This document shows positions 192 through 56,210 of a DNA stretch of 64,000 bases, in pieces (positions within the stretch are counted from its first letter, which is position 1; every line of letters starts with the position of its first letter). A model generated the notes under the pieces. That model did not search any database. It was given only the letters and a program-made list of their open reading frames with translations, and was not told the origin of the DNA. Both the position numbers and the translations under genes were made by a program. Origin of the DNA: Gracilariopsis chorda (Eukaryota > Rhodophyta > Florideophyceae > Gracilariales > Gracilariaceae); the NCBI GenBank assembly GCA_003194525.1, contig NBIV01000163.1, forward strand, positions 150,986 to 214,985, in the 5' to 3' direction.

Positions 192-1979
192 TCACTCACC
201 CCCATCGTCCGGGGCGTAACCCCCAGCAAGGCGGTAGGCCAACGCGTCCGCCATGGTGGTGACATCCCCCGATACCTCGGCAGCGCTAAGACCGGCACCC
301 CGGAGGAAACGTGCGATGATTTCGTTTTCATTCGCCGTCAACCCGCTGGGGATAGAAGGTCCAGCACTTGCCGCCGAAGGGTCAGCAGCCGGCTCGGCCG
401 GAGATACCCCCTCTGGGAAAGCTTCCGCGCTAGCGCCGGTTTCCTCTACGTCCATCTCCCCGGGTTCTTCCGGTTCGTTATCGACCATTGGGTCATCCCC
501 GCCGTATGCGCGGTAGTAGTCGTCAGAATCGACGTACCCCACCGGGTGGTCTTCCGGCACATGCTGGGGCGTATCGCGAAGCTCGCGCGCCTCCTCGGAG
601 GAAATTTCCCGGAACTCTTAGGGGTCAAAATAGATAAAATCCCCCGCAAGGGCGGTGTTTCTACCGAGTCCCGGACCACCGGTGTTACCGCTGCCGCCAT
701 CCAGACGACCGCTTTGCTCCAGCGGGACCTCACTCCAGCTAACGCTGTCGATGTACCCAAGTAATTGGAGGACCTCTTCATTGTTGGCCTGGCCCCCAAG
801 GGGGATGCGAAGATCCAGGTTTCGGATCGCTGCCCGCACACGCGGTTGAAGGAACCAGAGACGATACTGGTCGTACGCCTCGTTGAGGATATAAGCCGCA
901 GTGCGGGCCGCCCACTCCGTAACCACTACGGACCACAACCCCGACCGGGGATCCTGCATGAGCAGCGAACCGAGATACGTAGGTACCGGCGGGAGTTCTA
1001 TGTAGCATCCCCGGCAGGCTTCATGGAAGCGCCACCACTCGGGGAGTGCTACATACCGACCTAGTCGGTGAGGCGGCGCAATCCGCTCTATCTCCACGTT
1101 CTGATACGGGATAAAATACCCGAATCGGGATCGCCAACGCCGCTCGTAGCGGATGAAGTTTTGGAGAAAGCTGGACCGGTATTGCCGGGGAAGGTACCTG
1201 AACTCCGCCCGAATAATCGGTCGCTCCCAGCAAAGGGCTTCTTGCCGCGCTGCGGGGAAATTCCTCCAAGCGAGGGTCTCGAGGCGGAACAGGTTCTCGC
1301 CGTACCCAATCTCCCGGCGAGTGCCGAAGTAGCTAACGTCGAAGCCAAACTCCGGTGGGACCGGTACATCGAATGGAGCCCGGCTCTGCCGTTGATACGC
1401 CATGCGCGTCAACGCAGTCTGTGCCGCAGCGACGGTCTCGCCCGAATTTCTTCGGAGGTGGTGACGCGGAATCGCAATCCGGTGACGCCAATCCCACGAT
1501 GTGGTGACTGCTCTGGGCAGATCCCCCGGAAGGGTGTCTGAGCCATCCGCATAAGCGGTGACCAATCCCTCATTGAGGACAGCGACCGGGTGAAACCACG
1601 GGGCAAGGCGCAGGCGCGACGCGTGATTCCGATTCATCGGGTTGAGCCCCACGAGGGTGTTGTAAGTTGGCCAGTTGGACACCGGAGTGGTTCCGGAGGA
1701 CACCACCGAAGGTGGTAATGCGAAGGGATGGTCGGCTGCAGCAGCCATATTCCCCGGTTGTACCGGATTTCGATCGCCCTGAGGCAGGGGAACTGACCGG
1801 AAACCGGTGGTGTATCGCCCGAGAAGTTTCGGAGGTTGGCTGTGGTTGTTGATGTTGTTGTCGTCGTTCGTTTTTCCCTTTTGGAGGGTGGCTGTTGTTG
1901 TTGTTTGTGCACTCGGTGACTCTGATGCAGAGGGATTTACCGGAGAACCAGAGACAGAGCACGCGCTTTTATCACCCAT
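192..1979 (-). pseudogene. Antisense accessory ORF of Gypsy element copy A, one premature stop
   Basis: This is the homologue of the intact 595-aa antisense ORF at 48781-50568, in the same position between pol and the 3' LTR and on the opposite strand to pol. The first 453 codons read from 1979; a TAA at 618-620 stands where the other copy has TGG (Trp). The same frame then continues to the normal stop at 192, so only one codon is lost. Differences from the other copy cluster in the low-complexity N-terminus; a stretch of more than 100 residues before the stop is identical at protein level. No known domain is recognised. The protein starts with a Thr/Asn-rich tail, has a Trp/Arg/Tyr-rich core and ends in an acidic Pro/Ala/Glu-rich tail. 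The product is unknown. Confidence 0.8.
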
Positions 1980-2036
1980 TTTCGTCTGGGAATCCTCCGC
2001 GTCCGCGGTCGTTTTCCCTTCTTAAGGGGGGGGATA

Positions 2037-2843
2037 TGAAGTGCAACGCCCTCACGGAGGGATTCTTGGTACTTGAACGCTTTCCCGATATTATCGGTTG
2101 TGTAGTGTGTATATGAACTACGCCCCACTATGGTGGATATGGACACGTGGGACACGGTTTTGGGTCAATTGGCGGCTGGCCACAGTAGTGGATGTTGCCA
2201 CGAAATGTGGAGTATTTTAGTTAATATCATTTATTATTTTCACACCCATTTCTGGGAAGCTAGTACTTAGTGCGACGGCGCACTGCCGTCGCACCAGTAA
2301 ATCTTCCCCAACAAGGGACCCCAACCTGGGGATTTGGCTCTAGTTGTTGCCGCTTGCGCGCGTACTCTACTCCTCCTTGGAGGGAAACGCCGTAAACCAC
2401 GGGACATCTAACCCCCTTGCACATCTAAAGAAACCCATCACTGGGAGTATAATTGTTCCAATCATATTGGTGTTTCGCCCTGTATAGGGAGTCCTGTCCA
2501 CCGGCATTGCCGTATCTGCTCCTCGCTCTCGCGACCCACTTCGTCCTTCCTTCTTCCCCTTTTTAGGGTAGCACCTCCCGCTATCCGCGGCCCTCGTGTG
2601 CGCATCCGCTCACACTTCCCCACTTACGTGGAAACATACCTCTACTGAGGATCACACCCCGCTCACGCGGATACCGATTCTTTGCCTTCACCTCCCTGCG
2701 CGAGTCGCGACAGGTGTCCCTAGTCTTACAAACCGGCTTCGCTGTGACACCTCTGGGAGGGCTCTACCCAACTGGGTTCACCTCGTGAGAGGAAGATCCC
2801 GAACGTCTTTCGGTGTTTTTCCCCTTTGGGGCATTGCACCACA
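2037..2843 (+). repeat. 3' LTR of Gypsy element copy A (807 bp)
   Basis: It begins TGAAGTGC and ends ACCACA (TG..CA). It is preceded by a polypurine tract of about eight Gs at 2026-2033. Near-identical LTRs occur at 23069-23893, 47904-48725 and 58488-59295 in the other orientation. It contains at least 18 short hairpins, for example CCAC-TATG-GTGG at 2125-2136, CCAC-AGTA-GTGG at 2180-2191, CCCA-TTTC-TGGG at 2245-2256 and CCGC-TCAC-GCGG at 2659-2670. There is also a 10-bp stem at 2270-2294. Confidence 0.92.
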
Positions 2844-7409: not shown

Positions 7410-7695
7410 AGCTGTATATGTAGCTGTTGTCATTTCCACTGTCTGTTTGCTCCGTCATTCTGGGAAGGGCAGATCAGCGAGGTCATTTATTTACTGCAAC
7501 CAGTTGGAACGAATGGACTATAAACTACGTGGACTATAAACTACGTTCGACTATAAACTACGGTCGACTATAAACTACGTGGACTATAAACTACGTTCCA
7601 ACTGGTGGCAGTAAATAAATGACCTCGCTGATCTGCCCTCCCTGGAATGACGGAGAGGACAGACAGTGGGAAAGACAACAGCTATAGTATAGCCT
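7410..7695. repeat. Foldback repeat: ~100-bp inverted arms around a five-unit tandem repeat
   Basis: The left arm (about 7410-7511) is the near-perfect reverse complement of the right arm (about 7594-7695). The match is almost unbroken for the innermost 45 bp and weakens outward. The 82-bp loop consists of five copies of GACTATAAACTACG separated by two or three variable bases. No ORF is present. The layout is that of a foldback transposon or a MITE-like element; no clear target duplication was found at the outer ends. Confidence 0.8.
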
Positions 7696-9788: not shown

Positions 9789-10233
9789 TGTGAGACGACT
9801 GGGCTACAAAAGTGTCCGGCCAGACACTGATGCGAGCTTGTCCAGCGATACTTGTAGTGAGCTTCCACGAGCGTAGGCGGAACCGAGTTTGAATGAACGA
9901 ATCAGCTTGTAGTGAGCTCCCACACTCCCCGGTCAAACTCGTTGGAGCCGAAGCGAAGCGTACGTAACGTTCTGACGATGTGTTGTGTAGATGTGTAGAT
10001 GTGTAGATGTGTAGGTGTGATTGTAGTGTAGACGTGTAATACTCCCCGGTGGTCGGTATGACTTTGTGCGACGGAAAGTGCGGAGCAGAGGCAATGGCGA
10101 CTGGTGAGAATCGAACTGTGTACCACAGCGGCAGCGATGAGGGCCCATAACCTGTGAGACGACTGGGCTACAAAAGTGTCCGGCCAGACACTGATGCGAG
10201 CTTGTCCAGCGATACTTGTAGTGAGCTCCCACA
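9789..10233 (-). mobile_element. TRIM: miniature LTR retrotransposon with target duplication CACAT (445 bp)
   Basis: Two 81-bp direct repeats (10153-10233 and 9789-9869) read TGTGGGAGC..CTCACA on the minus strand and bound a ~283-bp interior without coding capacity. The 5-bp flanks CACAT (9784-9788 and 10234-10238) match exactly. Directly after the 5' repeat is GGTTATGGGCCC (10141-10152), complementary to the anticodon region of initiator tRNA-Met and serving as primer-binding site. A second copy of the LTR start (TGTGGGAGCTCAC) at about 9908-9924, preceded by purine-rich GGGGAG, suggests that the 3' repeat carries an internal ~55-bp duplication. The interior also holds a (GTGTAGAT)n microsatellite around 9977-10020. 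Being non-autonomous, it would need proteins from a Copia-type partner. Confidence 0.85.
10141..10152 (-). other. Primer-binding site of the TRIM (half-tRNA-Met type)
   Basis: On the minus strand GGTTATGGGCCC follows the LTR end CACA without a gap. It is the complement of the conserved GGGCCCATAACC of eukaryotic initiator tRNA-Met, which includes the CAU anticodon. Confidence 0.75.
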
Positions 10234-14917: not shown

Positions 14918-17731
14918 CTACACGTAGAAGAAGCGCTTTGTCAGGTTCGCGTGTATTGAAGGTACCTGACCGGATGAAAACTGCACTGGAAGCGGCTCAT
15001 CGCTTTGCATAGATGGCTGTCCAGGAATTAGTTCAAACCGCGCTGAACTACGGGCCGCAAGGAAGGCCCTGCCTCGCTGTGCAAGAAGATCGGCGTAATA
15101 CACAGCAGGCACCATTGACACACTGCGCGAAGCCCTGGTGAACAAGTAACACAACCGATACGTCAAGCCTTGGATTTCATCTGGTTCAAATCCGATTTCA
15201 TCTTTCAGAACAGTGTATCGCATCGGTCGTGAGGTGCCTTGGATACCGTTATGGCTAATGAGGTAGAAGTCATAATGCTGGGGGTGGGTGACGTCGGTGT
15301 CAATGACAGTTCCCGGAACGCAATTGCTAGAGCGATCTTTTGGCCCGTCATCCATGGGGAAGAAGCGCATGTGGTGTCCACGCTGCATAACGATGAACGT
15401 GATCTTTGGCTGATAGTCTGGTACACCATGTTGTCGCCCAAACTCAATCGCACAAGTCCTTGCGCTGTCCAGCTCGCTCCTCAAGATCTTAGCAAACTGC
15501 CCATCAGCGACACCATTCCTATAAATGAGAATGTTCTCCGGACAGAACTTTTCATGCGCGTGGAAGAGGGTGAGAATAGAGTTAAGCATGGGCCCAAACG
15601 ATACGATGCCTTCTTCAGTGGGCATCTGGACTTTTATGGCACCTCCAAACCTCCCACATCTCTTATCCAGGCTACCAACCATGGAAGCAATTGACGGAAC
15701 ATCGCCCGTTTGCTCCACCGCGGAAGCATGGGAAACAGTTGCACCGACGACAAGGAATCGGTCCCCTAGGCATTGGAAATGATCCCCGGGAATACGCGCA
15801 GTGAGGCCTCCAAGCTTTGCGTTGATTTTCATGCATAGATTAAGGCAGTAGAGTAACGTTGGCTGCTTGACCTGACTCGCAACAACGCACTGTGACGGAA
15901 TTCCAAGATATGTATCACTCACATTCTTAATCTTGTTGTAATCCCTGGTTGCAGTAGTCTCTTTGATAACCATGATCAGTTGGCACTCTGGAGTTGCTGG
16001 ATCATTGTCAATCTCTTGCTTCAAGCTGATCATATCCTTGACCAGAATGGGCGTATGACTGAACTTGATTCGTGGTTCTTTCACCTCCATCCCATACCCG
16101 CGAAGAACATGAGTAACAGCGAATACAAACTGTTTCACATCAAACTTCTGAACACTCTGCGCCAACACAAGTACACCCCAAGACAGCAAAGGTTCACCGG
16201 TTTGGAACACCTCACGGTCCTTCATGCTCCATGAGTACTCATTTTCAGCATTAGTTGAAAGATCTAAAGCAACGTCCTGTCCCACGATGATCCTCGGCGG
16301 TTCTAGAATTCGGGCACGAACAGATAACTTATTCATGTTGACCTTGACACCAAACGCATTCAAGTACTCTTGCGTGGACGCGTTGACGTCTTCAAGAACG
16401 TCAGCAATTCTGCTCATACGCGAAACGGGAGCTTGCGCAGCGATGTGAGCCATGCGCTCCTTCATTGGATGACTGAGCATGGCTCGACGACGCTGGCCCG
16501 CAATGATACGGGCCATTTCCAATGGAATGTAGACGTGGCTTTTGCCGGCTGAGATATCAATACATGGCATATCAGGATGATTGAGGGTACTACCCATGTC
16601 TGCAAAATGATTCGCAACCGACATACGAGCATGCTGAGATTCGAACTCCAGATCGGAGGCTGGTACCAGCGAAAGTCTCTTGACAACATGGGGTTTGCGC
16701 TCAGTCTCTTGCACGTAGATTTGCTCGACCTTGATGCCACGAAGTTCATTCTCCAGTTGGGCAATCTGCTGTTTGGTGAGGGGACCCTTTAGGGGCGGTT
16801 CATCCATGCGATCTTCAGAAGGCGGTGCATTGGGAGCAAGAATCTCGACAGCAAAATCATACACGGTTTGTGCCGTGTAAAACGCACTGTAGTTGACATC
16901 AAAGGACAGGAACATTCCATTGTCCTTGGGACGAAATGCTTGATAGTAGCACATCCAGGCCTCACATCCCTGCCCCAGACGGTTTTCCGCGGTACCCGTA
17001 GGCTGCACGGCAAATGTCTTGCCCGTGTAAATCCATTCACGAAGTGGACAGGTGCGGAGAGCAATATCCAATACGGTGATTGCCTCCTGAGGAACGTTGG
17101 TGAGATTCTTATTAATGAACTCTGAAAGCTCACTCATGTTAATCTGGTTGACGACGGTAAAGGTGACCTTGTACTTCTTGCCTTCCCACTGGGCCATGAA
17201 TTGCTTGCGGGGGCTTTCCCAGGCGGGATGAGTGGAGGTGTATGCATTCTTGCGGCCATCATGGGCAATCCTAGAATTGCCAAAGTCAAAGGCGTAATCG
17301 GCCTCGATGCTGCGAACGAGCTTGGTGGCAATTCCAATCGGGAGCGGTTTCTCTGTCTGGCCGCCGGCGCCGCGATCGCCGCGACCGCGACCTCGTCCGC
17401 GACCCCTGCCGCGTCCTCCGCGACCACCGCGTCCTCCGCCAGGAGGCTCTTCCTCGATCTCCTCAAAGACGAGATCGTAGTGCGTGACTAGCTGGCTGAG
17501 ATTGGAAATGTCGACTGGGTAACAGTTGACTTTGACGTCGGTTGGACGCCCTAGCTTACCGAAGCGGCCGTTCCTGGTTGCAGCGCCAATGTCGCGAAGA
17601 TCGCGAAGGACTTCGGCTGGGGAGGGACGGGGCACGGGCGCAGGGGGTTGGGCTGAGCGATCGGCGCCTCGCGGTTGAAAGCCACCTCGGCCCTGAAAAG
17701 AGCCGCCTCTTGGTGGACCTCCGTATGACAT
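14918..17731 (-). CDS. AGO: Argonaute protein, predicted slicer-inactive (937 aa)
   Basis: Argonautes bind a small guide RNA and direct it to complementary RNA. The start at 17731 (MSYGGPPRGG) is preferred over an upstream in-frame ATG at 18025, whose 98 extra residues are a translated CT-rich leader. Order: RGG-rich tail, N domain interrupted by an Arg-Gly run at about residues 94-122, PAZ (VANHFADMG, IPLEMARIIAGQ), MID and PIWI. The MID pocket residues for the guide 5' phosphate are kept: Y and K in DYNKIKNVSDTYLGIPSQC, the Q of SQC, and K in LCMKINAKLGG. The PIWI tetrad is not. GADVTHP has become GATVSHA (Asp to Thr665), YRDGVS has become YRNGVA (Asp to Asn739), and the His of YYAH is Asp881, as in plant AGO2/3. 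Cleavage activity is therefore unlikely; silencing by binding or partner recruitment is inferred. No introns. Confidence 0.96.
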   Translation of the reverse strand: MSYGGPPRGGSFQGRGGFQPRGADRSAQPPAPVPRPSPAEVLRDLRDIGAATRNGRFGKLGRPTDVKVNCYPVDISNLSQLVTHYDLVFEEIEEEPPGGGRGGRGGRGRGRGRGRGRGDRGAGGQTEKPLPIGIATKLVRSIEADYAFDFGNSRIAHDGRKNAYTSTHPAWESPRKQFMAQWEGKKYKVTFTVVNQINMSELSEFINKNLTNVPQEAITVLDIALRTCPLREWIYTGKTFAVQPTGTAENRLGQGCEAWMCYYQAFRPKDNGMFLSFDVNYSAFYTAQTVYDFAVEILAPNAPPSEDRMDEPPLKGPLTKQQIAQLENELRGIKVEQIYVQETERKPHVVKRLSLVPASDLEFESQHARMSVANHFADMGSTLNHPDMPCIDISAGKSHVYIPLEMARIIAGQRRRAMLSHPMKERMAHIAAQAPVSRMSRIADVLEDVNASTQEYLNAFGVKVNMNKLSVRARILEPPRIIVGQDVALDLSTNAENEYSWSMKDREVFQTGEPLLSWGVLVLAQSVQKFDVKQFVFAVTHVLRGYGMEVKEPRIKFSHTPILVKDMISLKQEIDNDPATPECQLIMVIKETTATRDYNKIKNVSDTYLGIPSQCVVASQVKQPTLLYCLNLCMKINAKLGGLTARIPGDHFQCLGDRFLVVGATVSHASAVEQTGDVPSIASMVGSLDKRCGRFGGAIKVQMPTEEGIVSFGPMLNSILTLFHAHEKFCPENILIYRNGVADGQFAKILRSELDSARTCAIEFGRQHGVPDYQPKITFIVMQRGHHMRFFPMDDGPKDRSSNCVPGTVIDTDVTHPQHYDFYLISHNGIQGTSRPMRYTVLKDEIGFEPDEIQGLTYRLCYLFTRASRSVSMVPAVYYADLLAQRGRAFLAARSSARFELIPGQPSMQSDEPLPVQFSSGQVPSIHANLTKRFFYV

Positions 17732-18545
17732 GATGGGTTGATGAAGACTGACTGAGTAGCGAAGGGCAAAAGGAACGACAGAGTAGAACGACTGAACAGG
17801 TGGAAGGTTGATGAGCAAGGTGAGAGAAGAGTAGGGGTTTTGGGGGAGGCAGAACAGGCTGCGGAGGCTGAGATGAGAAGGCTGAGATGAGAAGGCTGAG
17901 ATGAGAAGGCTGAAATGAGAAGACGAACGGCTAAAGTGAGAATGGAGTAAGAATGGAGTGTACAGACACGGACAAGATTTATGAAGTGGGAAGTAAAACG
18001 AGGCGATATTCGGACGGATCAACAACGGAAACAGGGATCAGAGCCGGAGGAGGCGAGTGAAGGGGATGAAAACGTGTGAGGCAGAGAAGATGGGTGCTGC
18101 AGAGCTGACGACAGCAGTTTGGGTGAAATAATGATGTTGAAGGGGGCGGGGGTGGGGGTTGAGATATGGGGAGAAGACGGGCGGTAGGGGTAGCGGTCGG
18201 GGGAAGGGGGGGGGGGGGGGAGTGCTGTTGGGAAAGCGATTGGTGGGCGATGTGCGGGGGTTGGTGCAAATTAGCGGCGATTTGCGTTGATTTGCGTTTG
18301 GCGCGATTGCGGCGCTGTGAAACGAAAAAAAGGAGGGGGTGAGGGGATGGGGGGGGGGGGGGGGTGATAGGGCACGCGTGGCAGCGTATGAGCCTGTGAG
18401 GGGAGCGTGACGCGCGGCTGCACGCCCATGCAGACCAGCAGCGAAAAGCGCGCGCGTTTGACCGTTCGGATCGTCCGGGGTCTATCTTGGTGCTGATGGG
18501 CGGCGCGGCCGCAGACAGCAGCGCTCGGAGCACCAGCTGCGCCAC
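17732..18545 (-). promoter_or_regulatory. Leader and promoter region of the Argonaute gene, with G tracts
   Basis: Upstream of the Argonaute ATG the minus strand is pyrimidine-rich, with poly-C runs seen as G runs of about 14 on the plus strand near 18207-18220 and 18350-18363. A 14-bp unit (GCTGAGATGAGAAG) is repeated four times at 17867-17922. A 188-codon Pro/Ser-rich frame here (17979-18545, minus) is low complexity and is not called a gene. No TATA box is clear. Confidence 0.5.
17867..17922. repeat. 14-bp tandem repeat, four units
   Basis: GCTGAGATGAGAAG is repeated four times head to tail, the last unit with one substitution. It lies in the inferred 5' leader of the Argonaute gene. Confidence 0.9.
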
Positions 18546-20224: not shown

Positions 20225-23200
20225 TCACCAGATTTCCAGTCGTAGACCTCCTTTTCTCAACACAACCAGCCCAGTCTGCATCAAAATATGCTCCCAAATA
20301 TGCCATATTGATATAGTGATAGCGGGTAAGAACAAACTAGAACCCGCCGTACCCTCCAAGTACGGTAGTACTCTCTTTCCAAGTCCCAAGTGCCTTATGC
20401 ACGGATCGTGGACTTCTCTCACGAGCATAGAAGCTGCGAGCATCACGTCCAGTTTCACAGACACAGAAAGATACATTAGATGTCCTATCATTCTTTGGTA
20501 GCGACTTTGAAGCACAGGGGTCAGGACCGCTTTGTCTTTACTGCAACACCCCAGATCGCACCGTGCTAGTAATGGCGTTCGGGTAATGTTGGGGTTCAAA
20601 AGCCTATACTCATTCAAGATGTTTTCCAGTTACCTAGTTTGTTGAACCATAATGCCATTCCTATCAAGTTCAATATCTAGTCCAATGAAGGACTTCGTTT
20701 CAAAGAGGAGCCTGACCTAAAAAAGCTTCTGCATTTCCTTCTTGAAGTCTTTGAGGAGATAATACGAGTTCGACAACATCAAATTTTCATCGAAAACGAC
20801 GCCTAAGTTCAAAATGACACCTTCAGACTTTCAAGGGTAAAGGCGGCTGTCTGTGCTTGGTTTTGTAAAGACATGGCGCAGTTATTTGTCGTATAACAGT
20901 AATCCCCAAATTTTTTCGGCTGGCCTTGCTCTGTAAATTGACTTCTCCAAGAGAAAACCTTTCCTGGAACGTACGAAGAGCGTGAAGCGTTTGTTCGCTG
21001 TTCCAGGATTAGAGGTTCTTCTAGATAACCGTATGGGTATGCGTTACTTATATCCATCGTTTCCAGTATGAGATCTTGGGCGGCTGCTTTTATAATTGCA
21101 AGTAGAACAGTTTCCAAGCGAGCCACCGGTGCATACAGATTGTCAGGATCGAAGTCTAAGTACGGTCGTTGCATGTGACCTCGTACAACACATCGTGCCT
21201 TCAGCAGGATCCTTTGTGGAGCTGAGCTTAATTATTTGGCTAGGAAGGTCCACAAAAATTGTAATGGCCTCATTTCAGGCCTTATATCCACCAATATCCA
21301 AGTTTTAGTTTGCATGAGCGCGTTATACTCCCTGTCGATTGCCTCTGCACATCCACGCATAAATCTGGCTTTCTCAAAGTTTTTTGGGACTTTGCCAAGA
21401 TCCCTGAGATCTTTGAAGCGCGAGTGGGCGACCATACAGTGAGACTGAGCAGCGTCGAGGTGTTCCTTGTCTTCTTTATTAGTTTTCCTCTCGGCATAGT
21501 TTCTTTGCAGAGAGGAGAATTCCATTAGGTAATCAATGGATGGGAGTTGTTCCCTAGCCACTTTGACGTCTAGTTCCCGATAATTAATAACTTTCCGCAT
21601 GGACGGTATGTAGATCATTTTTAGAGTTCGTAGGCTGTGCATGCCGACGAAATGTCCGGGTACTGCTTGGGGTAACAACTTTTTGTTTGGTGCGGTTTTG
21701 GGTCTGTATATAAGAACGTGACCTTTCTGTCCGAACTTCAATAAGTTCGAGAAGTCAGGCTTTTGCCCAAACCTGAGAGTAAACGGTATTCTCATTCCTC
21801 CTCGGGAGCTAGGCAGCCGCTTGCGCAAGTAGTTCGCGTGAGAGATGGCTTCCTCCCATAGTTCGGGTGGGAACTGAGAGGCCTGCAGGAGTGTTCGTGC
21901 CGTTCTCCAAAAGTCCTGAATGATCTTCTAGGCAGCCCCATTTGATTGATGTGCGTATGAAGGAGTATTGTAGGAGAATGACCATTGGGCAGGTGCAGTG
22001 GTGAAGTAACCATGGGGCTGGGCTGGCAGAGGTCAGAGCATTGCTGGCCGAAATATTCCATGTGGCCAAGCTGGGTGCCTATGCAGGAGATACGAGGGGA
22101 CAGTGCGAGTGCCAAGGCACTAGGTTTTATTATGTAGCTAATTTTATGTAATTTGTTAGGATAGTGTCCGGAGGTCAGAGCGCATCGCCAGCCATATACG
22201 TTGGATCGAGTGCCGCCGATCTCTGAAGTGTAAAGACAAGCATTCTCACCGTCTTCTTGCCGCCATATGCAGCCAGTAGGACTCCAAAGGCCTCCAAGCC
22301 ATCGCTACCATTCTCCAGACCTGTAGGGACTTGAGGTAGCGCCCGCCCATTGCGCCTCGCTGCCAGTTGGTGCCCGCGTCACTATTAGACCCAGTGGATT
22401 GTCACCCCAGTGGCTGGCTCTCTGCCGCTACTACCCTCCAGTACACTACTACCCCAGCTGGCCAAAAGAGGTAGTATTCTACTACAAGTATATTCGACAA
22501 TCATTCCATTTTCCGTTGCAAGCGTGAGGAAGACATCCGAACGGTTTTAACCCGCTCCATCAAGGCGAACGCGGTAAACACGGTTACGGAGTACTTTTTC
22601 TGGGAGAGCCTTGTAAAACCTCACTGCTTGAAAGAATTGGGACTTCTGATCCAGGAAGTAAACGGAGCACACTCGTGTATTATTGTCCAAGAGAACCTGG
22701 ATGTATCGGGAGCCTTGTAATGAAGGTGGATTGATGGGACCTGTGAGAATCGTGTGAGTCAGTTCCAGAGGTGTGGAGGCAGTAGACGCAGATTTTTGAA
22801 GAGGTGCGCGTCTCAAACCAGCTTCAATGCACGGAGAGCAGTAAATATTATTGACTTCAGTCAAGGAGAGCTGAGGGAGACCTTCGCATAGTTCAAGGCA
22901 TGACAGCAGTCTCTCCTTTCCTGGATGTCCGAGTTTATCGTGCCAGTCTTTGACCGCTTGTCCTGGGGACGGCAGTACAATTTTTGCACGTAGTGGAGAA
23001 ACGGGATTTGGTAACGGATGTATTCCGTCCCTCGCTGAGGTCTGGTAAAGTTCCGCATTAGAAGTGAGTGTGGTGCAATGCCCCAAAGGGGAAAAACACC
23101 GAAAGACGTTCGGGATCTTCCTCTCACGAGGAGAACCCAGTTGGGTAGAGCCCTCCCAGAGGTGTCAAGGCGAAGCCAGTTTGTAAGACCAGGGGCACCT

Positions 23201-25198
23201 GTCGCGACTCGCGCAGGGAGGTGAAGGCGAAGAATCGGTATCCGCGTGAGCGGGGTGTGATCCTCAGTAGAGGTATGTTTCCACGTAAGTGGGGGTGTGT
23301 GAGCGGATGCGCACACGAGGGCCGCGGATAGCGGGAGGTGCTACCCTAAAAAGGGGAAAAACGAAGGGCGAAGAGGAGAAAAAGAGGGCGAAGTGAGTCG
23401 CGAGAGCGACGGGGACGAACGGCGATGCCGGTAACAATATCCCTATACAGGGGGAAACACCAATGCAATTGGAACAATTATACTCCCAGTGATGAGTCCC
23501 TTTAGATGTGCAAGGGGGTTAGATGTCCCGTGGTTTACGGCGTTTCCCTCCAAGGAGGAGTAGAGTACGCGCGCAAGCGGTAACAACTAGAGCCAATTCC
23601 CCAGGTTGGGGTCCCTTGTTGGGGATGTTTTACTGGTGCGACGGCAGTGCGCCGTCGCACTAAGTACTAGCTTCCCAGAAATGGGTGTGAAAATAATAAA
23701 TAATATTAACTAAAGTACTCCACATTTCGTGGCAACATCCACTACTGTGGCCAACCGCCAATTGACCCAAAACCGTGTCCCACGTGTCCATACCCACCAT
23801 TGTGGGGCGTAGTTCATATAAACACTACACAACCGATAATATCGGGAAAACGATCAAGTACCAAGAATCCCTCCTTCAGGGCATTGCACTACAGTGAGGT
23901 CTTTCAATGTGAATCATGTGAAGTCCTTTCGTGTCTCGAATGGAATGTTCACATGGCCAGAGAGAACTGAGAGCTATACCAGGTTCGAGTCAGACGAGGG
24001 GTGCAATTTGCCAGAAGAGTTATTCCGTCACCTCAAGGTAGATGGATAGTTCTGTAGACGTTCCCTATCACAAATTCTTACGGTTTGGTTCCGTGTCGGG
24101 TGGTAGTCCCAAAGTAGGGATCTGTCGTTCACAAAAACGTGTGTCGCTCCACAATCTAACCATGTCCGAGTGTCAAGAGTAAAGTAGGATGTTGCTTGTA
24201 AAATGGCGATGAAGCCACACGGTTCCCGATCGTAATCTTTGTTGTTCCGGTTATTTTGCTGAGGGTCTTTGCGGATGTTCTGGTAATTGGAACCATGTTG
24301 TGCTTCCCAGCTACTGTTGTTAGAATCATTCTGGTTGTTTTGATGCCGATTTCGTCCATCACCATTTCTGGAGTCCCCGTTCGATTAGTTGTTGTTGGAC
24401 TTTCACTTCGACCAATACTCGGCACGGGTATATCCAAGTTTTCCGCAGTTCTAACACTCAACGCTTTCATTCTTACGTGAGCGCTGATTCTCTGAGACAG
24501 ATTTACGTACCGATGTGTATTAGTGCGACTGGTCCTTTTCACCGTCCGTATTTTTCTCTTTTTTGCGGAAGCAGAGGTGCCATGGTTTCTCCTGTCTATC
24601 TCTGAACGGATAAGAGAAACTACTTGATCGTACTCCAAGTTTTTCGCCTCTGCGAGAAGAGTGATTGCCATAAGTGAGTCGGGCAAGGTTTCCAGTAAGG
24701 TAGTAGTACGTTTACGATCGGTCAGTGGACCCCCTAGACGTGTAGGCTCTATTAACGTAGTTTTGAGCTCAATTAGAGTGTGTTGCATGTCTTCGCCTTC
24801 CTCTAACAAAAACGTACTAAGCTTCTGCCTAAACTCATTTTGGACTGGATTTTGTCCTTTCTATACTTTGCTTCACGTTTCTTCCATACCTCAAGAGCAG
24901 AAAATTAATTCCGCTCTAACAGTTCAGAGACAGCCACAACTGGTTGAGTCTTTAGCTTTTGCACAAATGCAGATCTGGTTTTGGGGTCTGCGTCCTCCCG
25001 ACGACGACGTTCTTGTCCGGGTTTAGGGCGCGGTTTCGTCAGGATAAAACCGAAATGTAGAGAATGCGTTAGATCTCTTACAAATATTCGCCAAATGTAG
25101 TGGTCAGCACTTCTTTTTAGTTGGGGGATACGCTTAGAGTCTTTTTTCTGTCGGCATCTATCTAGGAGTATGCTCAACTCGAGATGGAAAAGCTCCAA
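20225..25198 (-). pseudogene. Decayed Copia gag-pol
   Basis: Fragments occur in the proper order on the minus strand and match the Copia polyprotein at 2967-6953. Gag N-terminus, 24905-25198 (RSADHYIWRIFVRDLTHS, QPVVAVSELLER); gag middle, 24156-24809 (DSLMAITLLAEAKN); GAG-pre-integrase and integrase start, 22547-23086 (WHDKLGHPGKERLL, LTHTILTGPI, RVRLDGAG), resuming near 22000 with YAHQSNGAA; integrase C-terminus, 21232-21828; reverse transcriptase, 20809-21174 (LETMDISNAYPYG); and the RNase H-proximal part, 20225-20617. No functional product can be made. The sequence places this element and the 2967-6953 copy in the same lineage. Confidence 0.9.
23069..23893 (-). repeat. Solo LTR of the Gypsy family inserted in the old Copia element (TSD GTGAG)
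   Basis: An 825-bp LTR, closely similar to 2037-2843 and in the opposite orientation, is flanked by perfect 5-bp duplications GTGAG (23064-23068 and 23894-23898). No internal Gypsy sequence is present, so the element was lost by LTR-LTR recombination after inserting into the Copia pol-gag junction. Confidence 0.95.
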
Positions 25199-28900: not shown

Positions 28901-29439
28901 CTCCAACTTCCTAGCACTGGCACTATGTTGCAAGAATGCATTCCATGCTTCGCTCAATGTACAGCAGTAGTTCGATACCAAAAACATTGTCAGCGCATGG
29001 ATATCGCTGTTTGCGCATTCGAAGTCTACCTCTGTATCCAACACGAATACCAGTGTCAAACCTCTCGTTCCGTAAGCACCTTCAGTCATATGCAGTCGCG
29101 AAAGACCGCGAGGTACAGCTACCATCGAGCTTCCAAGACTAAGCGATACAGACAGAGATACGTCGCAGCCCTCATGTTGTCTTCATATTATCGACGCAAT
29201 AAGGGACACCTGTTGGATGTCACTGTGAACTGAACTCCAATGATGTACCCAGGTAGCTCACCATTTTCATCCCCTTTACACCCGCATATGTTCCTTCTTA
29301 GCCGCACATCTATCTATCTTGTGAGTGACACGACTTCTCATTCCCCTCGACTACTATTTGTACCGATCACCCGATGCATTTAAGGCCAAGACTATCGAAA
29401 TGCATGAGATCCCTGCACATCAAACCAGCCTCTTGAACC
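25965..29439. other. 3.5-kb intergenic region without a recognised gene
   Basis: Short overlapping frames occur on both strands, none with a recognisable motif. The motif AAAGGGTTA/TAACCCTTT occurs at about 26141-26155 and twice near 26892-26932, as elsewhere in the window. The last few hundred bases precede the lipase-like gene and presumably include its promoter. Confidence 0.45.
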
Positions 29440-31041
29440 ATGGCTCGTTTCATCCTCATTCCCCACGTGGTGCGCGTAGCTCTTATTTTCCGTTTCCTGC
29501 TCAGTAGCGTTGAAGCATCCAAATGCAAACGAGTGAAAGATGCTGCGTACTACCTCGCCCTGCCTGATAACGAACTTCTTGCTGTTGCCGCTTCAAAGTC
29601 TCGTATCGGGGATTGCTATCTTCAGAAGACGTCCCCGTCAGCCTCCGCTACTTGTGATCTCTACGTCAAATCAGCATTTGTCGGAAATGATGGAGATAGA
29701 GGCTGGCCGAAGAGTCTTCAAGACACGGGAACTGGTTGCGTGCGTGCTCCAAGCCTTCGGCGACGAGTGCGATCATGCCCTTATGCCAACTCTGTTTATA
29801 ATATCTCCTCCTCAATTGCTCAGTTGTTTTGCACGGATGATGGAGATGCGAACGCAGTCTCCATGCTCAGACATGCCATTCGTAACAAGGCATGTAATAT
29901 TTCTTCCAGTTCACCTCAAGTGGAGAGCTGTAGACAAGGTACAACTGCTTGTCGATGTGATCTTCGAAGTTCCTGCCCTGCCCGTGGTCCACCAGTGATA
30001 CTTCCAACCACCTTAACACTTGATCGCATACGAAGATGTCGCACCAGTTCCTTTTTTTCCTGCGATTCTACACTCGTTCGCCCGGAATATCGTGTGTTTG
30101 ACGACAGTGGGATGAGCAAAAGCCATCAGAAGCAAGTTTATCTGACTCAAGTCAATTCCCCGCGCAAGAGCAAAACCAGAAATCTTGTGCTTGGAATCGC
30201 CGGTCAGCAATTTAGAGTTAATGCTATGATTGGTGATGTCCAAGTTGGCAGACTAGGAGACGCGAGTGGTGTTACCGGACAGAAGGAGGCGTACAGCTCT
30301 GGATTTGATAAAACTCAAGGATCGCTCAGGAAAGACATTAGCCCAGAAGGGTTGATATCTCAAATCATGAAGACGGGCTACTTCTCGCTAGAAGATACTT
30401 TCGTAGGCCTCATTTTCGATGCGCGGTTTAACTATGAGTTCCGAAAGAAGGCAAAGGACAGGAATGAGGAAGGCTACTACAAATTCATTATGAAGAAGCT
30501 GGGGAATGATGTTGGAACGATCTATCTCGCTGGGCACAGTAGAGGAGGATGCCTCGCAATGAGGTTGGCTTCCCGATTGAACGCCCGGTTCCCTAAGGCT
30601 AGAATAGTCGTGCACAACTTTGACGCGGTTTGCACGAAGCCCAGCATTATTACATCTAGCGAGTTTGGGGTAACTGCGTCTCCTATTCGATACAACCCCT
30701 TGAACAGAAAGTATTTCGTTTACATGACTAATTTGAAAGAACGGTTTGTTAACAGAGACTGCTTGTCGGTTCGGGCGTTTCTGTCTGGGGAACAACCCGT
30801 CAATATTGGAATACTGAACTCTATTTTCCGAAGGTTCCGAGCTTTTGGACATCTTGGATTCGTGTCTAGCGAAAAGACTGAGGATTACTTGTGGAACAAC
30901 AAGGGTATTACCTGGTACACGGAGTCAATGCACAACGATACTCACGGTCGAATCGACAACAACTACCATGACTTAGCTGTACAGCATTTTGTAGCATCCA
31001 TGAAGTTGCTACCATGTGCGTGTGGAACAAAATTAGAGTGA
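29440..31041 (+). CDS. Secreted alpha/beta-hydrolase, lipase-like (533 aa)
   Basis: A hydrophobic N-terminus (about residues 6-27, ending SSVEASKC) reads as a signal peptide, so the protein is probably secreted or enters the endomembrane system. The nucleophile elbow LAGHSRGG with Ser367 (codon 30538-30540) follows a predicted beta strand (GTIYLAG) and precedes a helix (CLAMRLASRL), the arrangement of class-3 lipases and related esterases. An Asp (HNFDAV, just downstream) and a C-terminal His (NNYHDLAV) could complete the triad; their assignment is inference. The N-terminal ~200 residues are cysteine-rich and not recognised. Substrate is unknown. The gene is intronless and stands alone. Confidence 0.8.
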   Translation: MARFILIPHVVRVALIFRFLLSSVEASKCKRVKDAAYYLALPDNELLAVAASKSRIGDCYLQKTSPSASATCDLYVKSAFVGNDGDRGWPKSLQDTGTGCVRAPSLRRRVRSCPYANSVYNISSSIAQLFCTDDGDANAVSMLRHAIRNKACNISSSSPQVESCRQGTTACRCDLRSSCPARGPPVILPTTLTLDRIRRCRTSSFFSCDSTLVRPEYRVFDDSGMSKSHQKQVYLTQVNSPRKSKTRNLVLGIAGQQFRVNAMIGDVQVGRLGDASGVTGQKEAYSSGFDKTQGSLRKDISPEGLISQIMKTGYFSLEDTFVGLIFDARFNYEFRKKAKDRNEEGYYKFIMKKLGNDVGTIYLAGHSRGGCLAMRLASRLNARFPKARIVVHNFDAVCTKPSIITSSEFGVTASPIRYNPLNRKYFVYMTNLKERFVNRDCLSVRAFLSGEQPVNIGILNSIFRRFRAFGHLGFVSSEKTEDYLWNNKGITWYTESMHNDTHGRIDNNYHDLAVQHFVASMKLLPCACGTKLE

Positions 31042-32853
31042 CTCATGTCCTTAGTGTCATCACTGGTACCTTGGTTGCTCTAGAACCCTCCCGTTGACCT
31101 TCGCGCCTCGAACACTTGAGTCTTCCGGAATCGCTCCCATCGAATTGCACTGGCCCCTTTTTCAACATCGTCGGCTACTTGTGTGAATAGAAACCCCAAA
31201 GCAGACTGCGCAGTGAACTGCCCAAAATCCTGCCTCATGACTTACCAACCTGTCGCCAGTAATGGTCGATAATTTTGTTAAGTATGCGAACCAAAAGATT
31301 TGAGGGCAGCTGGGACACAGACCACGTGTTCTTCGGATCCATGGTGCAGCAACGATTGGAATACCACATCTGGGTTCTGAAGAGCAGCCATTTGCTAACG
31401 CATCTCGTTAGGGCACGTGCATCTCGCCTTCACGTGGTGTGCCTGACTCCGACCCCTTTTCGCTGGGGCGGAGCGAAATGAGAACGCAGACGGATCTCCA
31501 ACGGAGGCCTAGAACGGATGTGAAAGGTTCAAAATCGGAAACGACATGAGCCACAGAAGTTCTTGGCCTCTCTGAAAAGAGAAAGCTTTTACTGAAAGCT
31601 CTCCTTCTGCTTAGTAATAGAAAGCTGTTGTCCACAATAAAGAAGAAGAAGAAGTGGCTAGATTGTGTAGATTTATGCATCACATGTACCTAATGTTTCT
31701 AAGGAAGATAGAAGCGCTGTTGAGCGTTTCGTTTTGATAGATGTCTAACTTATCGCACTGCTCGGGTGAGGATTACAGATACTTTAGAGGTCCATGGTAT
31801 TCACACTCAATTATGAGGATTTCAAGTGACGACTGAGCTAAAGGAAGTGCCCCGGCCAGGGCACCTGAGGGGCGGATACTACTGTACTTACATAGCAAGT
31901 TCCCACAAATGAGCGGCGGAGGAGACAAATTTGAGAGAAGGGAGCGGAGCGTAGCGAGTTCCCACATTTCATTCGGGACAACCCATGAACCTTGATTATC
32001 TTACGATATCGGTCGTTTGACTTCGATATCTTTTTCTTTTCATTTCTCAAGCATGCCTGCCTTGCTGTTGCTAACTTACCAGATGGGCAAAAGTGCGATA
32101 CCTCGTTATATAGAAGAACTCGTGCAGTTACGGGTCCTTTTAAGGGACGATGGGCAGCTAACAATCCTAACCCTTTACGGCATCCCCAACGGTATGCGCA
32201 AATCTCAACCTAAATAAGAGACGTAGATAATCCCAGTCTGGAGTTCCCCCAACATTCTGCGGTACCTTGCGCGGTGCAGAAAGCTAAATCATGTTCCGGA
32301 GGTAGCGGTCCGCTAACCCTTAGATGCAGTGTATCGACGAACGCGAATGCGGACTTCAGGGCACGAGAAGGGCCGATAGCTCGAAGCTGTTTACAGCGGA
32401 TGGGGTCTTTGTAAGTCCATAGTTATGGCCCATAACCTGTGGGAACGCTTAGAAAGGAGCCAATAGCTTGAAGCTGTTTACGAAGAGGCTTCGGCGGCTG
32501 TGCCGTGTGCCGGCTACGTGTGACAACAGGGCTGTTGGGTTTTTGCGATATGTTCTCTGATCCTGTTTTATTTTGGTGTATTTGCTAGCGGTCCCCTTTA
32601 GCCCTTAGTGGGTAGTCGAAGGGCCCTTTACCCTTCGTAGAGGGCGTGTTACAAATGACAATAAACTCTACTAGCCAGCAGTCGCCTTCAACAATGAAGC
32701 AGCGGCTGCGCAATAGACGGCTTCTACCTTGGCTTCTCGCGAGCTTCTCGTTGCATCCCTCACTCCATTCCCCTTCGTCCTCCAACGAAGGCAATCCTTT
32801 CGCTGTACCCACCACATCTGAGCCAGCTGTGGGCAATTGGACGCTCAGCTAAT
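31042..32853. other. 1.8-kb intergenic region with possible degenerate TRIM-like repeats
   Basis: No gene is recognised. GGCCCATAACC at 32427-32437 is the complement of a half-tRNA-Met primer site and is followed by TGTGGGAAC, resembling the 5' LTR/PBS junction of a minus-strand TRIM. An imperfect ~40-bp repeat of what follows (GCTTGAAGCTGTTTAC) lies upstream near 32357-32394 (GCTCGAAGCTGTTTAC). LTR-start-like TAGC(A/G)AGTTCCCACA occurs at 31893-31907 and 31952-31966. These are remnants at best. Confidence 0.4.
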
Positions 32854-35800
32854 ATGGAAGGCGTAGGTATACCAGCCGCCACCAAAGCCACTGTTTCGCT
32901 TGCGAAGATTCCGTTTGATTTTCATCGCCGAGTGCGAATAGGTAAGAGAATTCCTCAAGACCTTAAAGGTCTCCGTAGCTATCGTGATTGGCTTCTGAGA
33001 GGGATTGAGAGCTGCCGACCAGCCCTTGATAAAAAAGACGTGCAGTCATGGTTAGAGCAACTTTCGGATGCCGAAAAGCGATTAGATAAGGTAAAGCCTG
33101 AGCATAGGAAAGGCATCCGTGACCGTCACGTTGACAGGGATAATGAGAGCCTTGCCCAAGCCGAGGAGATAATATCTCGAGTTAAAGATCAACTTGACAA
33201 CACCTTTAAGTTCGTAGAGATGTCGACAGACACTTTTGAGGTTTATTACTGCAAGCCGGACATGGAACGGAAATCGTACAGTCACTGCGACCAAGCAGAC
33301 CATCAAGGTAGGACAGTTCGCGAGGGAAAGCTGCGACAGCTTTTGTTATCAGCAAAGAAACCTCCTAGCTTCACCGCGTTGTACTGCGCTTATGGACCGG
33401 GGGGAATGGGCAAAACCGTAGCCCTTGAATGGCTGTCTTCTGATTCAGATGTTCGTAAGTACTTCAAGCATGGAATTCACTGGTTTGCATTCGGATCAGA
33501 CATTGAAGATGGACAGCTCATGGAACAGATTCGAATATGTGCTCTGAATTGTGGTTGGAAACAGCTAGCAGATGATTTGATGAACGAAGCAAGTTTGAAA
33601 GTGGCTATTCACAAGCTTGGAGCCAAATTCTTGGGAAAGACGCTTCTATTCATTATTGATGATGTGTGGGACAGAAGGAGAGAAGACGTTCTTTCATTCA
33701 GAAAGGCTCTTCATGGAGGACAGAATTGTGCGATGGTAATCTCATGCCGTGAAGGCAGCGTTTCGAAGATGTGTGACAAGATTGTGCCTTTTGACTTCTT
33801 GGAACCAATGGGGGATGTTTCGAGAGATATACTTCTATCATGCGTAGATGAGAACAGGAATGGCAATCTATTGCAGTGGTTGAAGAAGAGCAAAGAATGC
33901 ACAGAAAGTCTCAAGGCGGGCCTTCAGGAGTGCGGTGGATGGGTGCTAATTCTTTCAATTGTTGGTGCGATGTTAAGAGAAGAGATTGAAAATTGCGAAG
34001 ACGTTGAGGAGGCAACAGAAGTTCTACGCCGTTGGGCACATAGCGTAGTTGAAGAAGCGGATCTCACCGGAGAAGGGACTCGAGAATATCCGGGTGGGTT
34101 ACACCACATTGTCGGACAGGGCTTGAAGCACGCGAAACAGAACTTGATTAAACGAGGCTTCCCGGAGAGTTTATCATCGTCTGTGGCGGAAAACTTCAGA
34201 CGATTATGTGTGATACAGAAACAGAAGGCGATGCCGGTACACGTCTTGATGAAAGTTTGGAGCCTCGGGTTGAGGGAAACCAGGCGAATAGCAAAGACGA
34301 TGAAGGAAATGTCACTGATAGAATTTGGTTTTGATAAGAGTACGGTAGAAGTTATTCGTGTACACGATAAGATCATTGATCTATGTCGAGAACAGATGGG
34401 GACAGAAGCGTTTCGATATCATGAAGAACTTTTGGAGTCATTTGTGAGCCATTCAAAGCGAATTCACTGGCACAAAGATGTGTGGTATCGTCCGTGGTGG
34501 GTCCTTTCCGGCAGAGATGAGTATTTGATGGAGAATCTAGAATATCACTTGGCAGAAGCAAATCTGGTGAAGGAGTTATGGGGAGTGGTATGTGACGCCA
34601 GATTCATAATGCGATGGTTGGAGGATGGACGCCAATGGGTTGGGCTGGCAGATAAATTCGCGAGAGTTGTTCGGGCTGGTCTTGGAGTTAACGAAGGTCT
34701 AGAGGAGCTGCAAAGAGCACTACAGAGCTCATGGACAAGAGTAAGAATGTCCAGGTATTCACTAGGATTCCATATGTTTGGTCATCTTGACAAGCGAGAG
34801 AATAAGCGCGGAAGTGACAGTGTTTGTCGATTTCTGGAAACCATGGAGCTTTTTGAGACTGGTCCGTGGGTTCAACCCGTAAAACCGTTCCTGGAGCCAT
34901 CAAATAGTCAAGAGAAGCAGTGCTACCGACTGGGAAACAAGGAAGACCCTCTTTGGATTTCGGAGGACGTTTCTATTGTGGTTTTATTGGATATGCATGG
35001 TCTGATTAATGTGCTTAACTTGAGAAACCAAGAGTACGTGCGTCAGTTCGAAGAACTAGAAATGTGGTGTATGGGAGTTATTGCGTTTAGTATCGATGGA
35101 AAATATGCATTGGTGGATATGAAGAGAAGAAATGGCCGCAATGCGTATGTGATGGACCTGCAAAGAAATGGAGCACCTCCATTGGTTGTCAAGGGAGTGA
35201 CCAGGAACAGGCCACTCACAGCATGTGCCATTCATTCTCGAAATCTGTATGCCATTGGATACGAGGATGGTACTCTGGTATTGACATCCATGCGCGCTGA
35301 TGGGACCGAGAAGCGCACACACCTCTCTGCACCCACAGCATGCAAATGTGCTTCGTTTAGCACAGATGGAAAGTGCATGGCTTCAGGACACCACTACGGG
35401 GCTGTGAAATTATGGAGGGTTGTGGATGGGCAAAATATGTGCTCGTTCTCATGCGGCTGGGGTAACGTGACGTGTGTATCGTTCAACGCAGATGGTAACC
35501 GCATTGCTTCAGCATCAAGTGGCAACATCGTGCATGTGTGGAGCATTAGTGATAAAGAAGGACTTTGCTGGCTCTCCGGACATGAGGGTCGGGTGAATTG
35601 CGTGGTGTTAAGCTCGGATGGGACTATCGTAGCTTCAGGATCGGACGACTGGACCGTGAGGGTGTGGAGAGTGAGCGACAGGAAACAACTGTGCTTGTTC
35701 TCTGGACACTACCGACCAGTTAGAACCTTGAAGTTCAGTGCGGATGGGAAATTCCTTGCAATAGGTGGCGGTGACCACACCGTGCGAGTGTGGAGCGTGA

Positions 35801-37068: not shown

Positions 37069-37510
37069 AGAAATAGCAAGCCCAAGATTATGAGGGACGC
37101 GGAAAAGATTTAGTCGCAGGTTTAAGCGCAAGCCTTCGCAGCTCTGTCATCATCGGCTGCCGCGTCGGAGCCGACGGACTGCGTTGTGGAGCGGCGGCGC
37201 TTGTCTCGTTCCTCGAACTGTGCGGGTGCACTCGTTTTTTCTTCTCTCTTTCCCAGCCCTCTGCATCTTAGGCTATCGCTTCCGCTGGGCCCCGGAAATA
37301 CTGGCAACGCGGTAAGCTCCTTTTCGCCGTATCAGGGCCAGCAGGGCACGATCGCCTTGTTTTCCAAAGCCTCAAACCGATAAACATAATGTACATTAGA
37401 TACTCAATCGACTGACGCACTATGCTGTTCACCAGAACTGGGACAGCACTTCCCCGCGCACACTTGTTCGCGGTAGGTACTTCACGTACCAATACTATAC
37501 TGGGTTCTGT
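37069..37510. other. Intergenic, between convergent NLR-like and methyltransferase genes
   Basis: The two genes point towards each other, so this holds their 3' ends. No gene and no clear terminator is seen. Confidence 0.45.
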
Positions 37511-38950: not shown

Positions 38951-38995
38951 TGTTTGCCACTTGAAAAGATTCAGGACTGCACAAAGCGATGCAAG

Positions 38996-39261
38996 TGTAA
39001 CAGCCTGTCCTACTAGACAGTCCTATCACTAAGATCACTATCACTACCTAGATGTAGTTCAGTGAGCTCGGGCGCTGCTCGCGCTGCTGAGGAGGATACT
39101 CGGAGCAATTTTGGCTTGGACTACTCAATAAATTGGGCCGGACCAACCGGCCCGGGGAAGCGAAGGCAAGAAGCCCAAGAAGAGATTCAATCGCTCCTCG
39201 TTCCCCTTTCTGTGCGCTGACGAAGAAGTCCTCGAGCGCGACCATGTCCAACTCTACCCCA
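38996..39261 (+). repeat. 5' LTR of the young Copia element (266 bp)
   Basis: TGTAACAG..CTACCCCA. It contains an inverted repeat GGGCCGG/CCGGCCC near 39134-39153. The first gag ATG (39244) lies in its last 18 bases. Confidence 0.96.
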
Positions 39262-44054: not shown

Positions 44055-44079
44055 GTTGTCTTTCTTCTACGTTCTATCG

Positions 44080-46020: not shown

Positions 46021-46025
46021 GCAAG

Positions 46026-56193: not shown

Positions 56194-56210
56194 AGGGGAG
56201 ACTCCCTCAG

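Follow-up and report, generated by a model that had tools for sequence, protein, structure and literature searches.

The window, i.e., the whole 64-kb stretch of Gracilariopsis chorda DNA that was analysed, carries Gypsy sequence in three places. The 3' part of one element, copy A, occupies positions 1 to 2843 on the plus strand, its 5' part lying to the left of the window, and it terminates in an 807-bp 3' LTR (positions 2037 to 2843, plus strand) that starts with TG and ends with CA. A purine run, AAGGGGGGGGA (positions 2024 to 2034, plus strand), lies just 5' of this LTR and presumably serves as the polypurine tract. A solo LTR of the same family (positions 23069 to 23893, minus strand) includes repeats D1, D2, D4, I3, and I5. 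Element B extends from LTR to LTR over positions 47903 to 59296 on the minus strand, its putative ends having been placed by mapping to the LTR of copy A; it was analysed as positions 47915 to 59277, with the minus strand as sense. The window also contains an Argonaute gene (positions 14918 to 18025, minus strand; Pfam Piwi, PAZ, and ArgoN), which was used as a coding control, and a 1404-amino-acid gene with many WD40 repeats (positions 32854 to 37068, plus strand; Pfam, best 25 of 44 families), the N-terminal part of which we take to be NB-ARC. Identical 268-nt direct repeats at positions 38995 to 39262 and 45754 to 46021 flank a Copia pol and are the LTRs of a very young insertion. Downstream of Copia 1, 91-nt inverted arms (90%) surround short tandem ggactataaactacg-like units at positions 7421 to 7684, an arrangement that is MITE-like or terminator-like, and an 80-nt direct repeat (99%) is located at positions 9789 to 9868 and 10153 to 10232 with a spacing of 364.

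The carrier is a Ty3/Gypsy chromodomain LTR retrotransposon, as seen from the gene order, the TG..CA LTRs, the polypurine run before the 3' LTR of copy A, and the CCHC gag. In element B, the gag region (positions 56214 to 57993, minus strand) comprises several open frames and encodes a single CCHC knuckle. On the same strand, Pfam identifies the reverse transcriptase (RVT_1, positions 54276 to 55376), RNase H and integrase with its zinc-binding domain (RT_RNaseH, Integrase_H2C2, and rve, positions 52263 to 54098), and an ORF with a C-terminal chromodomain (PF00385, positions 50756 to 51913). This Gypsy order, with the chromodomain after the integrase core, bears out the Gypsy identity proposed for the LTR at positions 2037 to 2843 in the preliminary description. 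A 595-residue antisense ORF (positions 48781 to 50568, plus strand) matches no Pfam family, and its homologue in copy A (positions 618 to 1979, minus strand, inverted repeat I1) is shortened by a stop.

Families were sampled from the window and from six stretches chosen among 150 listed RVT_1 matches, which gave three families besides B: C575 (L061 and L062), C70 (L063, L065, and L066), and C1 (L064). L062, L065, and L066 are near-copies of L061 and L063; they entered the first counts and the pol comparison and were then dropped. One element per family was used from the shape and synonymous-shuffle analyses onward. The C575 element is cut off by the end of its contig. The reverse transcriptases of the three families are 60 to 70% identical to that of B at the protein level, and a 2.4-kb part of pol is 65 to 72% identical among the four families at the DNA level. 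The gag of all four has one CCHC knuckle, and Pfam Retrotrans_gag (PF03732) was found in 3 of 14 listed gag relatives. The antisense ORF is present in the 3' part of three of the four families (56% identity to B in C1 and 44% in C70), and no relative was found within the part of the C575 element examined. Since C575 is nevertheless rich in the hairpins described below, the antisense-ORF protein was rejected as their obligatory reader. Named relatives of this ORF come from Gracilariopsis chorda and Gracilaria domingensis, and named pol relatives among the 120 best matches listed come from Agarophyton chilense and Chondrus crispus; a search of viral contigs found no relatives. The B subfamilies L051/L067 and L060/L068 look mosaic, with near-identical reverse transcriptases, approximately 76% identity in RNase H-integrase, and then 88 to 98% identity, beyond which they are unalignable where the element of L051 may end. 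This pattern suggests recombination between element genomes.

The preliminary description had reported that the LTR of copy A is tiled with perfect mini-hairpins that start with CC and end with GG (CC..GG), and all 14 of the hairpins that it listed are present. The LTR contains 34 maximal perfect inverted repeats (stem of at least 4 bp, loop of 1 to 5 nt), 21 of them CC..GG and none GG..CC; the longest (positions 2270 to 2294, plus strand) has a 10-bp stem and a 5-nt loop. Among 1000 dinucleotide shuffles of the same LTR, the means were 12.6 in total, 1.4 for CC..GG, and 1.5 for GG..CC, with maxima of 24, 9, and 7, respectively, and neither the observed total nor the observed CC..GG count was reached once. 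The density is therefore far above that of shuffled sequence, the comparison on which the preliminary description had been staked; the observation is confirmed and is in fact larger than first described. What had been presented as an architecture of the LTR spans the whole element, including its coding parts, and recurs in several Gypsy families, and a view restricted to the LTR was thus ruled out.

The window was scanned for 4-bp stems with loops of 3 to 6 nt, and CC..GG starts were counted per 1-kb bin. There are 15 to 27 starts per bin within Gypsy sequence and 0 to 2 elsewhere, with a sharp stop at the element edges; the dense bins lie at 1 to 3 kb, near 23 kb (solo LTR), and at 48 to 60 kb (element B), where the terminal bins have 13 (right) and 4 (left) starts. 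The hairpin-dense parts of the window are thus element B, the 3' part of copy A throughout its length, and the solo LTR. In element B, to which the loop-length profile, evenness, stem-position counts, and inner-base variety refer, CC..GG stems number 49, 93, 75, and 26 at loops of 3, 4, 5, and 6 nt (4.7 expected for each), whereas GG..CC stems number 9, 4, 7, and 6. The CC stems fall off at loops of 7 to 12 nt (15, 11, 9, 5, 3, and 3), and hairpins with loops of 10 to 14 nt are at background. Non-overlapping CC..GG hairpins number 217 in element B, against 16.0 in 30 shuffles, and are distributed fairly evenly (6 to 14 per 500 bp).

All four families share the excess. At loops of 3 to 6 nt, CC..GG stems number 243 in B, 156 in C575, 119 in C1, and 89 in C70, and GG..CC stems number 26, 18, 14, and 31, respectively. 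The non-overlapping CC..GG counts also exceed the shuffled ones in C575 (134 vs 9.7), C1 (117 vs 14.8), and C70 (74 vs 15.2), and the host control, i.e., positions 29000 to 45700 of the window including most of a Copia element, gives 10 vs 10.2; this control was used for end pairs, pairing, and non-overlapping counts. Hairpins with any ends number 355 vs 117 in B, 231 vs 94.7 in C575, 305 vs 121.4 in C1, and 310 vs 119.0 in C70, with 168 vs 170.8 in the host, while GG..CC hairpins are little enriched (20 vs 17.4, 14 vs 10.7, 12 vs 12.7, and 26 vs 14.9 in the four families, in the same order). The end pairs depend on the family: B and C575 use mostly CC..GG, C1 also uses CG, TC, CT, and CA, and C70 uses CC, TC, AC, and CT and has C in pairs two and three. 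Hairpin positions mostly differ between families, 10 of 44 being common to L051 and L061. The coding parts were compared with 200 synonymous-codon shuffles by counting CC hairpins, and the excess is found in pol and gag of C575 (60 vs 8.1 and 43 vs 6.2), pol of C70 (34 vs 7.1), RNase H-integrase and the antisense ORF of B (31 vs 6.0 and 36 vs 7.1), and the antisense ORF of C1 (23 vs 4.1); gag of C70, at 8 vs 3.2, stays within the shuffled maximum of 10. The same shuffles gave 2 vs 3.6 for the Argonaute gene and 4 vs 1.6 for the NB-WD40 gene. The excess is absent from the host regions and the two Copia elements tested (1 vs 2.8 and 2 vs 1.9 CC hairpins in copia1 and copia2), which agrees with the earlier remark that Copia elements lack the feature.

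The repeating unit is a Watson-Crick stem of 4 to 5 bp closed by a loop of 3 to 5 nt. Among the CC-based maximal stems of at least 4 bp in element B, the commonest combinations of stem (bp) and loop (nt) are 4/4 (88), 5/3 (57), 4/3 (33), 5/4 (17), and 4/5 (15). Stems tend not to extend beyond their ends: a Watson-Crick pair flanks the hairpin in 10.6% of cases in B, 5.4% in C575, and 9.8% in C1, compared with 24 to 28% expected from base frequencies. CC/GG stems of C70 show no such depletion (30 vs 27% expected), in agreement with ends that lie one pair further out in this family. In B, an A directly follows about half of the hairpins, and the flanks are strand-asymmetric (+1 A 104 vs -1 T 31, p=1e-13), with the same sign across gag-pol, the antisense ORF, and both LTRs; the asymmetry is also seen in C1 (p=5e-7), with weak signals in C575 (p=0.09) and in C70 (p=0.13). 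Loops have no clear asymmetry. The third and fourth stem bases vary, with 15 kinds among 237 hairpins of B. Fixed-site double-stranded DNA palindromes for one binding protein were rejected, since the inner pairs differ between sites and match within a site, and the flanks of B and C1 are asymmetric.

When one pair of the stem was left free, Watson-Crick combinations occurred at 2.7 to 6 times background, whereas G-T/T-G and A-C/C-A combinations were near background; the exception is the 5-bp stems of C575, with G-U at 48 vs 26.0 (approximately 1.8 times) and A-C at 42 vs 21.3 (about 2 times). In B, C575, and C1 pooled, the more stable a Watson-Crick stem is as RNA, the more enriched it is (0.8 at 0 kcal and 6.4 at -5 kcal), whereas sense G-U stems of equal energy remain at 1.0 to 1.5. 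With the CC..GG ends given, Watson-Crick inner pairs are enriched up to 8.7-fold in B, whereas the values for sense G-U between -4 and -2 kcal are 0.6 to 0.9 (B and C575) and 0.9 to 1.4 (C1), and antisense G-U is at 1.3 to 2.6 in the stable bins. In the stems of element B (positions 47915 to 59277; four stem positions, loops of 3 to 6 nt, CC-based), C-A mismatches outnumber T-G mismatches by 115 to 48, as would be the case if sense-strand G-to-A changes either arose more often or were tolerated.

The folding excess resides mainly at short range. At a span of up to 16, folding is 30 to 49% above shuffles on both strands (host, i.e., the first 9000 bases of the host control, 1 to 2%) and 41 to 69% above when G-U is disallowed (host 4 to 5%); at a span of 150 it is only 2 to 12% above with G-U and 3 to 19% without. 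Both strands fold about equally well. Over long windows, computed for the four families only, the sense folding-energy excess over shuffles is 10.0% in B, 6.8% in C575, 2.6% in C1, and 4.5% in C70. Hairpins form with a probability of 0.31 to 0.37 in local RNA ensembles of approximately 160 nt, which is not above that with shuffled flanks and is lower in C575 (0.306 vs 0.378). Under DNA parameters, native flanks favour formation of the element B hairpins over shuffled ones (p=0.0012 for the sense and 0.012 for the antisense strand), and no clear gain was seen in C575 (p=0.31 and 0.053) or C1 (p=0.18 and 0.10). Two features that would have pointed to RNA folding, insulated folding and a choice of mutually orthogonal stems at adjacent sites, were sought and not found. 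The pairing pattern is unlike that of usual conserved RNA structure; it is in keeping with single-stranded DNA, with a requirement acting on both strands, or with a reader that accepts only perfect pairs.

The hairpins are also ordered along the element, as the preliminary description had anticipated in expecting non-random spacing. Centre-to-centre distances of CC..GG hairpins have peaks near 20, 40, 60, 85, and 100 nt and troughs near 30, 50, and 70 nt. This period was not predicted beforehand and emerged from B, C575, and C1 viewed together; the top period is 20.0 to 20.5 nt in each of them separately, and a jitter null, in which each hairpin was moved by up to 12 nt with a minimum distance imposed, matched it in 0 of 300 runs each. 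After near-duplicates were merged, a finer grid gives 20.7 to 21.0 nt as the top period in these three families. The order is local and fades beyond about 130 nt. C70 has no clear period, and with hairpins of any ends approximately 21 nt stays the top period only in C1, not in B or C575. For the host hairpins, the top period is 10.9 nt, from a small number of pairs (n=201). Helical-face phasing was rejected because the pooled distances of B, C575, and C1 peak at 20, 40, and 60 nt with a trough at 30 nt and show no 10.5-nt signal. Imperfect hairpins tend to fill the empty slots in phase (183 gaps of at least 60 nt): they peak 18 to 23 nt downstream of a perfect hairpin, with 65 in two 3-nt bins vs 9 in the bin at 30 nt, and the modulation is weaker when distances are measured upstream from the following perfect hairpin (64 vs 18).

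Polymorphism was analysed in family B only, with 33 LTR and 30 pol copies; 40 genome matches to the LTR of copy A, out of 1887 candidates, had been scored at 96 to 100%. Singletons disrupt CC hairpins at roughly the rate seen for matched random changes (33 vs 38.0 in the LTR and 45 vs 52.2 in pol), whereas shared variants, counted as cells, break them less (17 vs 29.4 and 16 vs 45.0). Counted as events, the singleton/shared ratio is 41/9 in stems vs 129/68 outside stems for the LTR (p=0.026) and 51/21 vs 306/277 for pol (p=0.0037), with a combined Mantel-Haenszel OR of 2.26 (p=3e-4); restricted to C/G sites, the test gives p=0.07 and 0.09. Since stems are struck at random by recent mutations yet avoided by shared variants, the hairpins are apparently maintained by selection. 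In the RNase H-integrase part, where the B subfamilies are 76% alike, there are 27 and 29 hairpins with 13 places in common, 11 of these 13 having identical stems (3.8 expected from shifted masks). Stem sites overall are no more conserved at this identity than base- and phase-matched sites (170 of 216 vs 169.5), so hairpins are either retained whole or lost. Compensatory changes are rare; among copies, a single case in which both bases had changed to form a different Watson-Crick pair was found, in pol, and the LTR had none.

An origin by mutation, in which template switching of the reverse transcriptase perfects near-palindromes (quasi-palindrome correction), would account for the nearly exclusive Watson-Crick pairs, for stems that are kept in shared variants and not in singletons, and for occurrence in Gypsy families with related reverse transcriptases and not in the two Copia elements. 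It is nonetheless quite improbable. New variants do not clearly create CC hairpins beyond chance, with singletons making 0 vs 0.5 in the LTR and 3 vs 3.2 in pol, and 2 vs 0.5 and 0 vs 4.9 gained in shared cells, all of these being small numbers. Candidate gains agree: only 7 of 32 are unambiguous, and 5 of these 7 need a single substitution, the C1 row being weak because its outgroup stretch is too wide. The identical stems of the common hairpins at 76% identity, the scant enrichment of GG..CC, the avoided outward pairing in three families, and the approximately 20-nt phase also argue against it, and the earlier suggestion of a footprint left by a process that makes mini-palindromes is disfavoured by the mutation tests, the CC..GG polarity, and the outward pairing. 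Taken together, the comparisons of copies, subfamilies, and families indicate that density is kept while position turns over, with no sign of mutation making hairpins. An artefact of composition, coding, or chance might be sought in the somewhat high G+C content of the elements (0.53 to 0.58), and it was ruled out for composition and codons, leaving practically no probability to this explanation, by the dinucleotide and synonymous shuffles, the internal control of GG..CC, the background level at loops of 10 to 14 nt, and the host and Copia controls.

The Gypsy elements of this genome thus appear to carry a selected, quasi-periodic array of mini-hairpins, in which one slot of approximately 20 nt comprises a hairpin of 12 to 13 nt, with CC/GG at or beside its base, and a linker of approximately 8 nt. 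Slots hold perfect or imperfect hairpins, and a high density is maintained across families while positions turn over and end pairs differ. A protein with a footprint of approximately 20 nt is the most likely reader. We tentatively propose, from the analyses above and as a possibility somewhat short of even, that the array is a distributed binding code for the element's own Gag. The Gag/nucleocapsid would read it on the single-stranded genome (gRNA, or cDNA within the particle) at about one hairpin slot per Gag, each family would thereby coat, condense, and package its own nucleic acid, and family-specific ends would keep families from packaging one another. A still more tentative generalization is that LTR retrotransposons may use a whole-genome assembly code, with a mini-hairpin per slot of approximately 20 nt, a slot per Gag, and the ends as a family password, written over coding and regulatory sequence and selected for density rather than position.

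The scarcity of G-U pairs weighs against a plain RNA reading, so the earlier idea of a role in RNA packaging is borne out by the pitch and strained by the pairing. The same observation favours hairpins that act in single-stranded cDNA, where they would organise or protect the minus-strand DNA during reverse transcription under a DNA pairing rule. Strand-symmetric folding, the gain of the B hairpins over shuffled flanks under DNA parameters, and the weak antisense G-U excess at -4 and -5 kcal are consistent with this explanation, whereas C575 and C1 lack a clear gain under those parameters, the A-rich flanks are on the sense strand, and the antisense G-U excess may reflect G-to-A decay; action in cDNA is rather unlikely taken by itself and stands close behind the Gag model. 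It is likewise doubtful that some RNA-binding protein besides Gag, encoded by the host or the element, reads the array on sense or antisense RNA for export, stability, or translation, or that the array shields both strands from Argonaute and small RNAs. A host Argonaute gene does lie within the window, the pitch is near the length of small RNAs, and a two-strand requirement would account for the loss of both G-U and A-C pairs. This explanation predicts neither the CC..GG polarity, nor the family-specific ends, nor the avoided outward pairing, and simple arithmetic indicates that a 20-nt pitch leaves some 21-mers without a whole hairpin. The earlier proposals that the hairpins mark dsRNA or resist small-RNA targeting likewise leave the end code and the pitch unexplained, and the earlier interpretation is accordingly only partly supported.

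The means by which LTR retrotransposons and retroviruses choose their genomes are commonly looked for in a single leader structure or a handful of them. If Gag reads the array, the whole genome would be the signal, legible from sequence alone; if another reader such as cDNA or small RNA is involved, an unrecognised constraint on retroelement genomes would still be indicated by the excess at LTR positions and synonymous sites. Genome-scale ordered RNA structure (GORS) is a folding excess over shuffles along a whole genome. The Gypsy elements resemble it in having such an excess along the whole element and differ in that the excess is mainly at a span of up to 16, that the strands are about equal, and that a sequence code is present at the stem ends. 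Palindromic repeat families, known from organelle and bacterial genomes, also consist of numerous short hairpins, with sequence common to the copies; here, on the other hand, the stems vary in sequence and have no more than shape and end pairs in common.

Rfam gave no match over the gathering score in the 64 kb, and among open-licence papers, judged by title and abstract, no description of such tiling in a retrotransposon is apparent. In the parts of the literature considered here, packaging-signal assembly proposes hairpins with shared features that are dispersed over the genome, as in the single-stranded RNA viruses MS2 and picornaviruses and the HBV pregenome (PMC6281560), and the present elements likewise have many short stem-loops genome-wide with a shared recognition feature and otherwise varied sequence. 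Unlike the viral signals as described there, the array is denser (217 CC..GG and 355 any-end hairpins per 11.4 kb in B), has a quasi-period of approximately 20 nt, places the shared feature at the stem base, admits almost no G-U, has family-specific ends, and belongs to LTR retrotransposons; RNA-like pairing, with G-U tolerated and the sense strand favoured, was not observed except in the 5-bp stems of C575. A further counterpart is the packaging of Ty3, also a Gypsy-type element with one CCHC knuckle, for which the portions of the accounts drawn on give two 5.2-kb genomes in 540 Gag, i.e., approximately 20 bases of gRNA per Gag, compared with about eight in HIV-1 (PMC6525542), and a CCHC finger that is critical for packaging (PMC4974528). 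Hairpin tiling goes unmentioned in those portions (PMC6525542, PMC4974528), the comparison being one of descriptions rather than with the Ty3 sequence itself, and the agreement between the Ty3 figure and the pitch of approximately 20 nt may be a coincidence. Because no such description or Rfam family was found, the pairing is not RNA-like, and the stems are unlike those of sequence-sharing palindrome families, the array appears to be new as a feature, and its function may prove to be an extreme form of a known one.
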